Assembly: GCA_013115135.1 (NCBI GenBank)
Contig: JABANP010000156.1
Span: 40,119 to 104,118, forward strand
DNA: 64,000 nt
From: Perkinsus olseni
Taxonomy: Eukaryota; Perkinsozoa; Perkinsida; Perkinsidae
Direction: 5' to 3'
The notes under the pieces were generated by a model. The model saw only the letters and a program-made list of their open reading frames with translations. It made no database searches and was not told where the DNA came from. Shown here piece by piece: positions 4,702-55,623 of this stretch. Position 1 is the first letter of the stretch. Each line of letters starts with the position of its first letter. The position numbers and the translations under genes were made by a program.

Positions 4702-6996
4702 ATGACTCGTGGCGTTCCCCTTCGGTCAGTCACTTTTGCTCGGCACTTGTCCATCATCCAGGACGCCTCTTCTAAGAAGACCGGTTGTACTCAATACAGG
4801 GTTCCGGGAGGGGTCCAAGGGCGTATCTTTTATCCGGCAGTATCCGAGGTTGATCATGGGTATAAACAAACTACGTGGTTCACGGATCTCGAAAGATACG
4901 CGTAAGTTGGGAATGGTTCTTAATCGTAACGGGCTTACCATACAGAATTGTCTAGAGCTGATCCAGTCCTCATTAGAGTGGAAATTCGCAGGGCGCTCGA
5001 ACGATGTGGTTTCATCCGACCTTACTGTATCCATCGGACTCCGATGATCGGAGGTTTCTGCTCCGTAAGGTGGTTGCGTCCCTGCGAGAGGGAAATGCTT
5101 CTTATTCTGACTCCCTAGGAGATTCATCAGTTTTCTGAGAGCGAGGAAAATGGCTCGTTTTTTATTGAGACGCCTGAGGAAAGCTATTAGTTTTTAATTG
5201 TTTCCGGATTCCCGAGTTGCAGCCAACGAGTTTGTAATTTCTAAGCGTCGTTGTCGCCGTTCAGGACTGGCCAGTTGGACGTCGGCCGAGCTTTGTTTAG
5301 AAGATCTCGAGTGATGCAGATCGTTGCTTCGATCTTGGAGTGGATGGTGAGGATCATAGCCTATGTTTTGCCGAGGTAACATCTTGCAATCTTGCATCTC
5401 CTTAACGCTGGTCATGTCTTCAGTCGTTTGTTCGTACCAAAGCTGAGCTCGACTTACGACTGTGTGGAACCTGTCGAGGAGGGGTCGCTGCCACTGGTGG
5501 TGTTCTCGCATGGTCTAACTGGAAATGGCGATGAAAACGCTATGCTGTGCTCAGCACTGACTCGTAAGCATGTCGGGAAGCACCTGCCTCTCCATCGGAA
5601 GGTATCCGGTTCGATCCTCTCGCGTGTCGTTCAGGTGAAATTGTCGGAGGTGCTATTGTGGCGGAAGTCCATCATCAGGATGGCTCAGCCTGCGAGGCAG
5701 TGGACGAGGACGGCCACAAAATACCATATATTCCGGTGGGAGCTCTTATCCATGGCGCCCAGGTTCGATCCCCGGTGGCTTGATTTTAGGACCCCATTGG
5801 AAGCCCGGACCCCAGAGATCTTCGGCCTAAACAAGTGCGCCAGCGTGCGAATGAGATGAAGTCGGTGATCGAGTAATACCACAACTTTCGTAATTTATGT
5901 ATGTGAATATCCAACGGTTTCAGATACCTCTGTGCGATCGGGTCCGGTGAGGAGAGCTCGGATCCCTTGCTGAATCGTGTGGCGAGGTTGATCGACCCTC
6001 GTCGTATTATCCCTGTTGGTTACTCCTTTGGTGGTGCTACTGTGGCTGAATATTGTAATAATCGGAAAGAATCTTTGAAGCTCGAGTAATGCCAGCCTGA
6101 TTATGACCTGGTTCTGTTTCATAGTCTACGGATCATGGGCCCATGTGCAGGCCATGGCACAGGATTCGAGCACTCAGTTGGGTACTCCCTCAGTGACAGC
6201 GCGGACTTCAGATTGGCGTTGAGTATCTTTCCGGTCCTGATTGCGCAGTTCTGTCTGTAGGCTCGACCGTTGGTCTGAAGAGGGTTGAGGATAAGTGTGT
6301 GCCGTGCGCGGTATTGATGGACCCTTGGACATACGTTACCCCTAGGGACGGCTCTCAGGGCTTCAACTTCCCTGAGAGGGCGCATAAAGAAGGTATCAAC
6401 GGGCGTTCTGTTTTAGCGGTTAACGGGGATGGTTTAGTATCGAAAGACCCTAGTTCGAATCTGAGTCCCTAACGTTTAAGCAATGTATTCTCGTTCCGTA
6501 TCGAAGGTGACTCTTTCTGTGTACTTCTGGTAACCGGTAGGTGACTGAGAGGTGCGGAATAATTTCGAAACGTATTTTCCTTTGTTGTGCTTCTGCGTTT
6601 CTTACCGCCTGTCTTCCTTGAAGTTGTATGGAGTTGTGGTCAGGAATCCAAACACCGACGCTGATCCTCGGTAGCGAGGAGTTCTCTAAGTACCCCGGTA
6701 TGCGTTCCGCCACTGTGAACTTGCATGATAAGAGCTTGCAACCTGGAAGTCGGCTCAGGGTACGATTTGGCGGAGTTTTGATATGTGCGAATGTGCGAGT
6801 ATTCTAGGTAGTTGATAAGACAAGACATGGTAATTTCATGGAGCTTTGTTTTTGGATGCCGCAGTTCCTCGTGCCAGTCGCGGCTAGGATTGGGTTTTAC
6901 GATAAGAACAACAAATCTGCGAGAGGTGAGCGGGAGGTTCATCATTCTTTAGCGGAGCGAAGTTTTTCTGAACAGGCACGTACTGCAAAATCATAG
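4702..6996 (+). CDS. PAF-acetylhydrolase-like secreted/cytosolic lipase, copy 1 (9 exons)
   Basis: Exons 4702-4901, 5265-5375, 5424-5563, 5635-5735, 5790-5872, 5924-6054, 6261-6392, 6644-6759 and 6808-6996 give about 400 residues. The features match the platelet-activating-factor acetylhydrolase family (alpha/beta-hydrolases that cleave short sn-2 acyl chains from phospholipids). Near residue 55 there is a GRIFYP strand. The oxyanion segment is PLVVFSHGLTG, followed by VHHQDGSAC. The nucleophile elbow GYSFGG has Ser about 246, acid LMDPW has Asp about 276, and TRHGNF has His about 345. No clear signal peptide is visible. Introns are 48-363 nt and two of them (5564-5634 and 5736-5789) are tRNA-like. 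Exons 1-7 have exactly the lengths of copy 2. The C-terminus is shorter (400 versus 441 residues) because the last exon reaches a stop that copy 2 lacks, so it may be truncated. Confidence 0.85.
5564..5634 (+). repeat. tRNA-like mini-intron (lipase copy 1, intron 3)
   Basis: A 71-nt GT-AG intron, itself of tRNA length, with the B-box-like core GGTTCGATCC at 5608-5617 and an upstream CCTGCCTCTCCATCGGAAGG anticodon-arm-like stretch. The equivalent intron in copy 2 is more complete. The pairing expected of a functional T stem is broken. Confidence 0.6.
5736..5789 (+). repeat. tRNA-like mini-intron (lipase copy 1, intron 4)
   Basis: A 54-nt GT-AG intron whose centre is a TPsiC-arm-like CCAGGTTCGATCCCCGG (core at 5762-5771). 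It is conserved at the same position in copy 2, so it predates the duplication. Confidence 0.6.
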
Positions 6997-53345: not shown

Positions 53346-55623
53346 ATGCCGAGCATCCCCGCCCCCTCATCGCCTCCCTCCTCCTCGTCGTCTTTAATAA
53401 ATAAGTCTGGGGGAGATCTGAGTGCAGTGGATTTAATATGTGCTGATATGGACGGGACATTATTATCACCCGATCATAGTATACCCGATATAACATTTAA
53501 TAGGATTAATAAAGCTGATAATAATGGATGTAATAACAACAACAACAAAACCATCATACCAACAATCCCCTGCATCAGGTCCGGTAGTACCTGCTACTGG
53601 CAGATGCCGCTGGTCTGCTGCTAAGTGCTTCGCACATGGAGGAGTTGACCTGTAATAAAATGCCCTGGGTGGGAATCGAACCCGGGACGTTTCGCAGGTA
53701 CTCTCGTCCCGGTATCTACTTGAACGGTTGTGTGGTTTATGACCAGACTGGGTCTGTAGCGGCAGAGAAGACTCATTCTTACGATGATGTAATAAAAGAG
53801 GTTCGCCGGCGGTCAGGAAGGGTATCTTAGGTTGACCCATGCGTTTCTCGGAATGTGATGATTCAGAATTGAACCATTGTTGGCCCATTGTAATATTATT
53901 GTATATACTAACGACTATAGTTTATTATTAAACTTAATCTGCTTTAAAATGCTATAATAATACCACAATTTGCATATAGCATATATAATTATGATAAGAT
54001 ACCCTATGATACCGATGTTGCTCAGGTGGTGTCTGTAGTAAACAACTTCAAAGACGAGGAGAATGTGGTTATAATGTGCTGCAGTGGCGATCATGTCTAC
54101 GCTCCCTTCGAGTCTCCCATCATAGCATCACTGGCTGATACGTAATAATGAAAAGGGGCAAATCGATCAAAGATTCGCCGTTTTCTTGTCGCTTGCCAGA
54201 GTCGACCTATGATTCTCTCGGTATTTTGATTTGAATTAAGTGCCCTTCGTATCATCTTTGTTGTTATACGACTACTTTCAAAGAGTTTGGGCGATCGTGA
54301 TGTCGTGGGTTGCCTCGTCGATCGCCAGGTTTTTCTCTGTTTCATCATCTGTGTGTCCCCGGTAAAGACTAATGAGGATCATCAGTGACGACCACCAGCA
54401 AAGACTCCTTACTTGCTCTCATCAGTCAGGGTTCTCTCGGCGTTGCTAACTGGATTCACTGCGCTTTGTATTATCATATCGTTTGATGTGGATGATCGTT
54501 GCGGTCGAGTTTGTCTTTGCGTCATCTTTTCATGTATTTTTACTCGTCATCATCACCTCAGGTACGGCGACCCTTACCCAGAGAACTGTCGGTCGTATGA
54601 TGGTATGCTGGAGAGAATCAAGAAGGAGAATATACCGGTCCATATGGTAGGTGGGGCATCCTCCTCTTACTGCTGATCTTCGGACCACCAGCGTTGGTTG
54701 AAGTGAGGCATAGGAACTTCCCAAGTACCACTACTATCGGTGCCTTCCTAGGGGAAGCCCGGGCGATCCTTTAGCGGTGCAGCGCTACTACTCGGATGCA
54801 GATAAATTCTTGTTTTCTCAACTTGAGAGTCGCAAGCCTCGAGCTCCTCGTGATCATTCGCCAGACCTTCTGCGTCAGGATTGCTGGGCGATCGATACTG
54901 ATGACGCGTATCTCGTACATGGTTCATTCTCAGATTCACATCATGTCTACAGAGGGGTCGCTGTCGCCAACGGTGTTGGAGAAAGCTCAGAATTTCGCCA
55001 AGTACATGGGCGAGTTCGTGCCGAGTCGTCGTAGTAATGTGGAGGAATCTTCTTCTCCGTGCGCTAGGTCGGGAGGCTGCACCTCGGCACAGTCCCTACC
55101 ATTCTTGACCGATATCATCCCCGCTGGGGCACACAAGGGTTTCGGGGTCGATGCTCTTAAGGAGAAGCTGGGATGTAGGCGGAGCGAAGCGATTCATGAT
55201 TGCACATTTTCGGTGGTGATTGGTCAGATAAGTGCGTAGCCTGTGTTGGTGATGCCCTCAACGACTACCAGATGCTCAAGGAGGCCGATATCTCCGTTGC
55301 TATGGGAAATGCCATCCCTCAAATCAAGGTGGGTGAGGAACTTCCCTGCCATAGATTCAGTCCCGGGTTCGATCCCTGGTGGAGGCATTTCTAATATATT
55401 TGCTATTCTATTGGTGGCGATTCTATTACTTCACTTGAAAAAGTTGACCAATTCCGGCAGTTCCCGTTCTGTTGTCAACCCCACAGCGCTCCGCATGCTC
55501 GTACGTCGTCTATGTGTTTTTCTGCAGGAGCTGGCCTCGATGGAGGTGAATCCGAACTCAGCTGAAGTGCCCGGCGTCGCCGATCTTGTAGATAGGGTCC
55601 TGACCGCTAAGCGTGCTCATTAA
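53346..55623 (+). CDS. HAD-superfamily (Cof-type) phosphatase, HAD-4 (9 exons)
   Basis: Exons 53346-53529, 53579-53651, 53698-53788, 54026-54141, 54562-54646, 54934-55001, 55068-55174, 55228-55328 and 55528-55623 encode 306 residues. Motifs: DMDGTLL (Asp about 34 and 36), VVPATGRC, GAHKGFGVDALKE, and GDALNDYQML with VAMGNA. The C-terminus is PGVADLVDRVLTAKRAH. Exon 1 and intron 1 (49 nt) are nearly identical in DNA to HAD-1 and HAD-3, although later exons differ at many positions. Intron 2 is only 46 nt and consists largely of an antisense tRNA T arm. Intron 8 holds a tRNA-Gly-like segment. It starts 77 bp after TMEM208 and ends 154 bp before DnaJ. Confidence 0.91.
53652..53697 (-). repeat. 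46-nt tRNA-like mini-intron (HAD-4, intron 2)
   Basis: The minus strand reads CTGCGAAACGTCCCGGGTTC then GATTCCCACCCAGGGCAT, a T arm with strong stem. Plus-strand core GGAATCGAACC at 53672-53682. Nearly the whole intron is T arm plus splice signals. The equivalent HAD-1 intron carries a T arm in the other orientation. Confidence 0.7.
55329..55527 (+). repeat. tRNA-Gly(GCC)-like segment in HAD-4 intron 8
   Basis: CTTCCCTGCCATAGATTCAG contains a CTGCCAT loop (55346-55352, GCC in anticodon position). It is followed by TCCCGGGTTCGATCCCTGG (B-box core 55366-55375) and GAGGCA. That is the order of the 3' two-thirds of a tRNA-Gly. The 5' part is missing. Confidence 0.6.

Follow-up and report, generated by a model that had tools for sequence, protein, structure and literature searches.

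The origin of new introns and of intron sequence is a long-standing question. Known mass sources of introns are transposon-like introners, which form recognisable families. tRNA-derived short interspersed elements (SINEs) consist of a head with A and B boxes and a body, follow a family consensus and are accompanied by target-site duplications (TSDs). Here, we describe short tRNA-like elements in introns of Perkinsus olseni, a parasite of shellfish, which were studied in a stretch of 64,000 nucleotides (nt) of contig JABANP010000156.1 (assembly GCA_013115135.1, positions 40,119 to 104,118; referred to as the window) and in the genome beyond it. Like tRNA-derived SINEs and tRNA retropseudogenes, the elements are dispersed and carry a tRNA-like B-box and a T-tail; unlike tRNA-derived SINEs, they showed no head of A and B boxes, no family consensus and no TSDs in the tests applied. 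According to excerpts of the study by Gozashti et al. (2022, PMC9860276), introner families are defined by all-against-all BLAST at 1e-5 reaching both boundaries, and they mostly fit DNA transposition. The P. olseni elements resemble introners as described in these excerpts, since they are short, intron-sized, dispersed in thousands and similar near the splice boundaries; however, they share only tRNA landmarks, show neither TSDs nor inverted repeats, and some of them are found at old positions. The main text of that study contains no words starting with "perkins", "trna" or "sine". In Amoebophrya, part of the non-canonical introns is bounded by inverted repeats of 8-20 nt and direct repeats of 3-5 nt, according to excerpts of PMC7789003. 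These introner elements are likewise repeated introns of diverse sequence, and their host is a parasite of the neighbouring dinoflagellate branch, but the P. olseni introns are GT-AG and neither repeat type was found. Human introns contain 281 homologues of mitochondrial tRNAs, the nimtRNAs (excerpts of PMC7722341), which are also tRNA look-alikes within introns, whereas the P. olseni pieces are half-tRNA mosaics that fill the greater part of their intron. Searches of the open PMC literature revealed no account of spliceosomal introns derived from tRNA, be it in Perkinsus or in other organisms.

Each P. olseni element looks like the 3' half of a tRNA and comprises, over ~40 nt and in either orientation, tRNA positions ~37-47, the T-loop, C72-A73 and a run of T's; the 5' half of the tRNA is missing. 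The elements are present in introns, occur in both orientations and have a mosaic make-up, and no TSDs or inverted repeats were detected. We consider it somewhat more probable than an even chance that many short introns of P. olseni are filled by such mosaic tRNA-3'-half cassettes, which would have been laid down by template switching.

An earlier note on the window had reported B-box cores (GGTTCRANNCC) in introns of three unrelated gene families and had named as its counter-case that these cores are no commoner than in shuffled sequence. Using the reversed pattern or shuffles as control, 13 matches were counted in the window, compared to 0.99 expected (standard deviation 0.94; maximum 4 in 100 shuffles); they represent 12 distinct sites, since the matches at 1588 and 1589 form a single palindrome. 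In the genome of 61.5 Mb, the core occurs 3113+2933 = 6046 times and the reversed pattern 499+534 = 1033 times. With up to one mismatch, the counts are 33849 and 25100, and the one-mismatch excess over the reversed pattern (3736) is thus lower than the exact-core excess (5013), which argues for a low divergence of the elements. The A-box pattern exceeds its control by only 219 (828 vs 609) compared to 5013 for the B-box, but the A-box pattern is stricter. No tRNA genes were identified in the window by ARAGORN, and the Rfam tRNA family RF00005 had no window match even at an E-value of 10; the sole Rfam trace is a tmRNA fragment of 13 bases (E 3.1), which lies on the T-loop at 53671. The sample consisted of the first listed places on contigs C1-C6 and the window, that is of loci picked by their hits, and comprised ~363 kb, 270.8 kb of which were scanned with the 40-nt matrix described below. 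It yielded 112 rows with a B-box: real tRNA genes account for 8 rows (7 sites), a further 72 score at least 5 as tRNA-3'-half, and 32 fail. If this sample is typical, about 3900 of the 6046 genomic cores would be such elements by extrapolation.

The introns of the window were searched as GT-AG introns only, and the test was whether their removal restores the protein frame. All twelve introns named in the earlier note, four in lipase genes (copies counted apart), five in HAD genes and three in TMEM208, are GT-AG, and their in-silico removal yields HAD, PAF-acetylhydrolase or TMEM208 proteins without interruption over the tested stretch, with Pfam support. The claim thus held for the introns themselves and for all three families, and it has to be adjusted for the core, which is exact in eight of the twelve and one base off in the other four (lipase intron 3 in both copies, HAD 13052-13104 and TMEM208 intron 2). 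In protein comparisons, the HAD protein of the window matches P. olseni first, followed by P. marinus and P. chesapeaki. The junctions of HAD A match the P. olseni protein P0005 and those of HAD C the P. olseni protein P0001; the introns of HAD B are based on its own reading frame and an alignment to HAD A and C. The lipase junctions match P0025 of P. olseni and align gaplessly to P0028 of P. marinus, and the lipase reading breaks after exon 6, downstream of the element-bearing introns. The TMEM208 junctions match P0019 and P0020, but P0019 retains 8 extra residues at intron 1, and the 3' end of intron 3 was corrected to 52533. A thirteenth element intron, which was overlooked in the earlier note, is located at 13398-13451 in HAD A and is backed by P0005. 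A further HAD C intron of 66 nt (55002-55067) is a multiple of three and contains no stop; it is removed in P0001 and coding in the deposited models P0003 and P0004.

A 40-nt weight matrix was built from the 72 elements, 10 of which are window sites, and is therefore partly circular; at 12 bits or more, it detects 19 hits in the window and none in the reversed window. Fifteen of the 19 hits are located inside verified introns or copies thereof, which comprise 5046 of the 64,000 bases (8%). Exact cores fall into these introns at 10 of 12 sites or, with duplicates counted once, at 7 of 9 (binomial P 3.9e-7; 4743 intron bases). This count is not blind, as the introns were verified from the leads of the earlier note; the tests on the sample outside the window are blinder. 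Decayed elements in the remaining introns were considered and rejected. Twelve verified introns contain no exact core: ten of them score far below zero by matrix, and the other two are elements. Among 45 further predicted introns, two pass 8 bits. The elements of the window are located as follows:

5564..5634, plus strand: lipase (PAF-acetylhydrolase) copy 1 intron 3, 71 nt; forward element 5594-5633; spliced protein, P0025/P0028 gapless, matrix 22.2
5736..5789, plus strand: lipase copy 1 intron 4, 54 nt; forward element 5748-5787; spliced protein, P0025/P0028, matrix 35.3
11098..11181, plus strand: lipase copy 2 intron 3, 84 nt; most complete element, with A-box-like GGTATAGTGATTAG; 3' part 11141-11180; protein, matrix
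11283..11337, plus strand: lipase copy 2 intron 4, 55 nt; forward element 11296-11335; spliced protein, P0025/P0028, matrix
13052..13104, plus strand: HAD A intron 1, 53 nt; forward element 13059-13098; P0005, matrix 19.2
13398..13451, plus strand: HAD A intron 3, 54 nt; diverged reverse element 13402-13441; P0005, matrix 21.1
14109..14176, plus strand: HAD A intron 5, 68 nt; reverse element 14104-14143; spliced protein, P0005, matrix
20206..20278, plus strand: 73-nt counterpart of HAD intron 5 within a partially duplicated HAD gene; reverse element 20201-20240; splice score, matrix
45880..45946, plus strand: HAD B intron 4.5, 67 nt; reverse element 45877-45916; spliced frame
46727..46773, plus strand: partial TMEM208 duplicate with exon 1 and the beginning of intron 1; forward element 46733-46772; 3' end uncertain, splice score prefers another acceptor
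51806..51930, plus strand: TMEM208 intron 1, 125 nt; forward element 51812-51851 by the 5' splice site; protein, Pfam, matrix
52007..52158, plus strand: TMEM208 intron 2, 152 nt; reverse element 52087-52126 towards the 3' splice site; protein, matrix
52296..52533, plus strand: TMEM208 intron 3, 238 nt; forward element 52307-52346 by the 5' splice site; protein, matrix
53652..53697, plus strand: HAD C intron 1, 46 nt; reverse element 53657-53696; P0001, matrix 43.9
55329..55527, plus strand: HAD C intron 6, 199 nt; forward element 55352-55391 near the 5' splice site; removed in P0001, P0003 reads into the intron
1573..1612, minus strand: element outside the verified genes; exact B-box, matrix 39.9
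43349..43388, plus strand: element outside the verified genes; matrix 21.7

Outside the window, local GT-AG hypotheses were scored by splice matrices and codon composition, which were learned mostly from window genes; the splice matrix is derived from 28 introns, among them TMEM208 intron 3 with a wrong 3' end. A score of at least 8 for an intron of up to 90 nt was obtained for 32 of 62 elements, compared to 249 of 1551 positions drawn at random from the same loci, some of which may hit true introns (odds ratio 5.6, P 3e-10). The enrichment in introns that the earlier note had proposed as a check is thus seen in the sample. In a second set, found by matrix and without an exact core, 9 of 15 elements score as introns (P 1.6e-4) after the removal of four mirror or repeated sites (10 of 19 before removal). 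The 16 verified short introns that were tested all score 8 or more, but they belong to the training data. A 49-nt intron splits the kinesin P-loop AYGQT-GSGKTYTMG at locus L006, a 54-nt intron splits the PPP phosphatase stretch KLLCPQS-VYILRGNHE at L042, and two introns are located inside a phosphonopyruvate decarboxylase at L092; the spliced proteins of all three are gapless at the junctions compared to solved homologues. Pfam searches likewise recognised unbroken C2 and choline kinase domains, and a match to a response regulator that stayed under the curated cut-off. Judged by the restored proteins, the tested cases are securely assigned to predicted introns. A self-made gene finder was dropped due to too little coding bias and replaced by the local splice-plus-coding score, and a vertebrate-like 5' splice matrix was unsuited and relearned from the 28 introns. 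Allowing introns of up to 200 nt gave a poor separation, with 33 of 62 elements at a score of at least 10 vs 37% of 447 controls.

The position profile of the elements climbs near tRNA positions 37-38, is strong at 44-48 (AGGTC) and in the T-loop, and rises a second time at C72, A73 and the T's behind them. Positions 66-71 vary almost freely. An A-box-like stretch is kept in intron 3 of lipase copy 2 and is gone from copy 1. In the short element introns, the tRNA-like piece makes up most of the intron, which bears out the earlier observation that some introns are little longer than the piece; the occurrence of both orientations was also correctly recognised. The donor lies at tRNA position 19-40 in 19 of the 21 forward cases and the acceptor at 74-108 in all of them; in the 16 reverse cases, the donor is found at 72-89 in 15 and the acceptor at -1 to 41 in 16. 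The closeness of splice sites and element ends is partly built in, since the search took introns of up to 90 nt containing tRNA positions 44-73. Supported element introns have a median length of 57 nt, compared to 74 nt for the best guesses at control positions. In the longer forward introns of the window, the element starts 6, 11 and 23 nt after the 5' splice site (TMEM208 introns 1 and 3, and HAD C intron 6, respectively), and in the longer reverse one, TMEM208 intron 2, it lies 32 nt upstream of the 3' splice site; thus, the would-be 5' side of the tRNA faces the nearer splice site in four of four. As both orientations are found, the motif is not a strand-specific splicing signal. RNA structure was rejected as a constraint, because folding of the elements revealed no excess (z 0.13 and -0.08). 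A minihelix between the 3' strand of the acceptor and either an upstream 5' strand or the 5' splice site was rejected as well, because upstream partners of the acceptor strand show no overall excess in the 72 elements (114 vs 119 expected); a lone small peak is found at -60 (5 vs 0.9 expected).

A reading of the pieces as plain tRNA gene copies was not supported. The T-stem pairs 49:65, 50:64 and 51:63 are formed in 28, 45 and 31 of 72 elements, compared to 33, 42 and 32 in shuffles, with pair 50:64 being 2 standard deviations above shuffles; in real tRNAs, the same pairs are formed in 48, 49 and 50 of 50 distinct sequences, and ~62 paired elements would be expected for intact tRNA copies at 10% divergence. 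All three pairs are present in 8 of 69 elements; for this count and the comparisons that follow, three duplicate window sites were left out. The arm 36-47 recurs in 36 element pairs with up to two mismatches, compared to 2.4 expected, whereas the acceptors (66-72) are hardly shared (11 pairs with up to one mismatch vs 13 expected; 105 pairs with up to two vs 92 +-9). Element pairs with similar left arms show no extra likeness right of position 47, barring one T-run column. Three elements match the arm 36-47 of one tRNA-Arg(TCT) of this genome exactly and then depart from that tRNA in the T-stem; no other left arm was matched exactly to a tRNA of this genome. Plain copies of the known tRNAs of this genome were rejected as a source, with a best match of 27/36. 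These data suggest that the elements are mosaics rather than tRNA copies, in which segments typical of different tRNAs are probably joined inside the T-arm. Unpaired T-stems, together with shared left arms that lack shared right sides, are read as template switching within tRNA genes.

With 81 of 145 ARAGORN calls (overlapping loci counted repeatedly), tRNA-Arg(TCT) is the most frequent tRNA of the fetched loci, and the fetched tRNA genes are dominated by Arg(TCT), Arg(CCG), Thr(TGT) and Ile(TAT). Real tRNA genes were found at L037, L038, G000:C778, C823 and C607, where they form tandem arrays with many spacings of ~165-185 bases.

Neither TSDs nor inverted repeats are in excess at the elements, and no family consensus was found among them; the best unrelated pair agrees at 20 of 25 non-B-box positions (~270 kb scanned). 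The elements thus show no end-to-end sequence family as in introners, no TSDs or terminal inverted repeats as in DNA transposons, neither the head of A and B boxes nor the consensus and TSDs of tRNA-SINEs, and no paired T-stem as in a tRNA gene or young copy. GT-AG removal restoring a protein, as for spliceosomal introns, was observed in the window and in the kinesin, PPP and decarboxylase genes. Despite failing the tested SINE and introner features, the elements appear introner-like in that they are intron-sized and, by protein evidence, probably spliced.

The three HAD paralogues allow a comparison of intron positions and intron contents. Introns 1 and 3 (A, C), 4.5 (B, C), and 5 and 6 (A, B, C) are located at one alignment column each, and the positions of intron 4 (B, C) agree within one residue. 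tRNA pieces are present in introns 1, 3 and 5 of A, 4.5 of B, and 1 and 6 of C. Intron 1 contains a forward piece in A, none in B (from its own frame reading) and a reverse piece in C, and intron 4.5 contains a tRNA piece in HAD B (67 nt) and none at the same position in HAD C (66 nt). The same positions with different contents suggest that old introns were refilled. Five lipase copies have common exon boundaries, and the intron contents were read in two of them. Intron 4 of these copies is identical at 18 of 25 positions in its left part and at 28 of 29 in its right part, which is suggestive only of a replacement of the left half between the copies; intron 3 is longer in copy 2 and shortened in copy 1. 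Based on these alignments, the HAD and lipase introns are probably older than the duplicates, and the HAD introns would also be older than their content.

A second short repeat, TATCTTAGGTTGA, is found at 3011, 3047, 46068, 53823, 55699 and 63251 (six copies with up to one mismatch vs 0.06 expected). The copy at 46068 is located in intron 5 of HAD B, where HAD A carries a tRNA piece, and the copy at 53823 in intron 2 of HAD C.

At the kinesin site, 13 of 13 other matching loci continue across without an intron-sized gap, and so do 6 of 6 at the PPP phosphatase site. Only 3 of 13 kinesin and 3 of 6 PPP loci run well past the site and the others stop 7-12 residues beyond; 10 of 13 kinesin matches end about where the interrupted gene's own match ends, and one PPP match and one kinesin match contain a stop codon. 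Since the kinesin and PPP paralogues are distant, intron gain is plausible but not proven, and some element introns, such as those at these two sites, may be new. The proposal that tRNA pieces seed introns is only partly supported: these sites would allow it, whereas the HAD and lipase positions appear to predate the piece or at least the duplicates. The uninterrupted loci, the thousands of copies and the closeness of element and intron ends, which is partly forced by the length limit, also fit introners proper, that is, a tRNA-derived mobile element that brings splice sites and creates introns, with the HAD and lipase cases being old insertions that decayed differently. We regard this explanation as unlikely, since it would have to account for the absence of a sequence family, TSDs and inverted repeats, for a forward, no and a reverse piece at one shared HAD position, and for positions common to five lipase copies; the distance of the kinesin and PPP paralogues, and the 10 of 13 kinesin matches that end 7-12 residues past the site, weaken its best cases.

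The bias for the 3' half, the T-tail, the weak A-box excess (828 vs 609) and the unequal length of lipase intron 3, which is shortened in one of the two copies, would be expected if 5'-truncated tRNA retropseudogenes or a tRNA-SINE were spread across noncoding DNA, trimmed by deletion and merely tolerated in introns. However, 15 of 19 window elements fall into 8% of the bases, the sample shows a similar bias (32/62 vs 249/1551), T-stems are broken although the B-box excess implies low divergence, and TSDs are missing, all of which makes this scenario rather improbable. Alternatively, the B-box could be retained for a function of the DNA in introns, either as extra sites bound by TFIIIC or in small RNA polymerase III units ending at the T-run. 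Persistence of the B-box and T-run despite the loss of T-stem pairing and the irrelevance of gene orientation (21 forward, 16 reverse) are in line with such a function; the exact B-box, however, is partly due to ascertainment, the anticodon-stem block should not matter, and half-decayed elements (matrix 0-20) are also present, so that we consider it very improbable. Chance or an annotation artefact can be dismissed with near certainty in view of the core excess in window and genome, the intron enrichment, the matrix hits and the protein evidence for kinesin, PPP and decarboxylase.

For the template-switching reading, the following mechanism is proposed, in which our confidence is moderate. The cassette would imitate the 3' half of a tRNA gene with the anticodon loop (~37), the variable loop, the T-arm, C72-A73 and the terminator T's. 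It could arise by error-prone templated synthesis at the DNA level with template switching among tRNA genes, during break repair or at stalled replication, with the conserved tRNA blocks serving as microhomology; neither a transposase nor target-primed retroposition would be involved. In a forward element, the T-run would act as the polypyrimidine tract before the AG, and in a reversed one, its complement would provide an A-rich GTAAAA-type 5' splice site (e.g., 53652). Either orientation could thus survive in genes, because the element ends adjoin usable splice signals. The patch would replace old intron content or, at some sites, may create a new intron. A wider version, in which a standing DNA-level process writes tRNA-gene patchworks into transcribed genes, where they become or replace introns in either orientation without a mobile element, a transposase or TSDs, is put forward tentatively, as a possibility rather than an expectation.

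Several observations speak against the template-switching reading. A supported short intron is lacking for 30 of the 62 sampled elements; 32 of 104 non-tRNA hits are too weak as elements, yet 9 of these 32 score at least 8 as introns. Only 5 of 10 window elements pass the intron score, with three located in introns longer than 90 nt, and the splice and codon model was trained mostly on window genes. Against the intron assignments in HAD C, the deposited P. olseni model P0003 reads through the 66-nt HAD C intron and into the intron at 55329. The tRNA set comprises 39 distinct 3' segments of 13 anticodon types, and other tRNAs may hold the missing arms or whole sources; the likeness of left arms could partly reflect the shared tRNA consensus. 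The diversity of the acceptors exceeds what a limited number of tRNA genes would give, and simple templating does not explain this. The evidence stems from one genome and from protein frames, from which we infer splicing and the direction of change, and template switching is inferred from the mosaicism.

Other sequences of the window include long adjacent reading frames at 32174-38566, which look retrotransposon-like by eye and two of which have no Pfam match. A family of secreted-looking proteins with short introns is present in four copies (15247-16639, 21338-22667, 27720-29139 and 38776-39900), and the one copy tested has no Pfam match. A near-perfect inverted repeat with ~30 bases per arm is located at 19025-19101.

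In P. olseni, thousands of intron-sized sequences obey the tRNA consensus yet share no family, and a BLAST-based search for introners would therefore probably miss them. They allow intron turnover at conserved positions to be tested and tie tRNA genes to intron evolution. The pattern suggests an undescribed way for cells to write new intron sequence; if this is true, tRNA genes would be a general source of intron sequence that acts without a mobile element.

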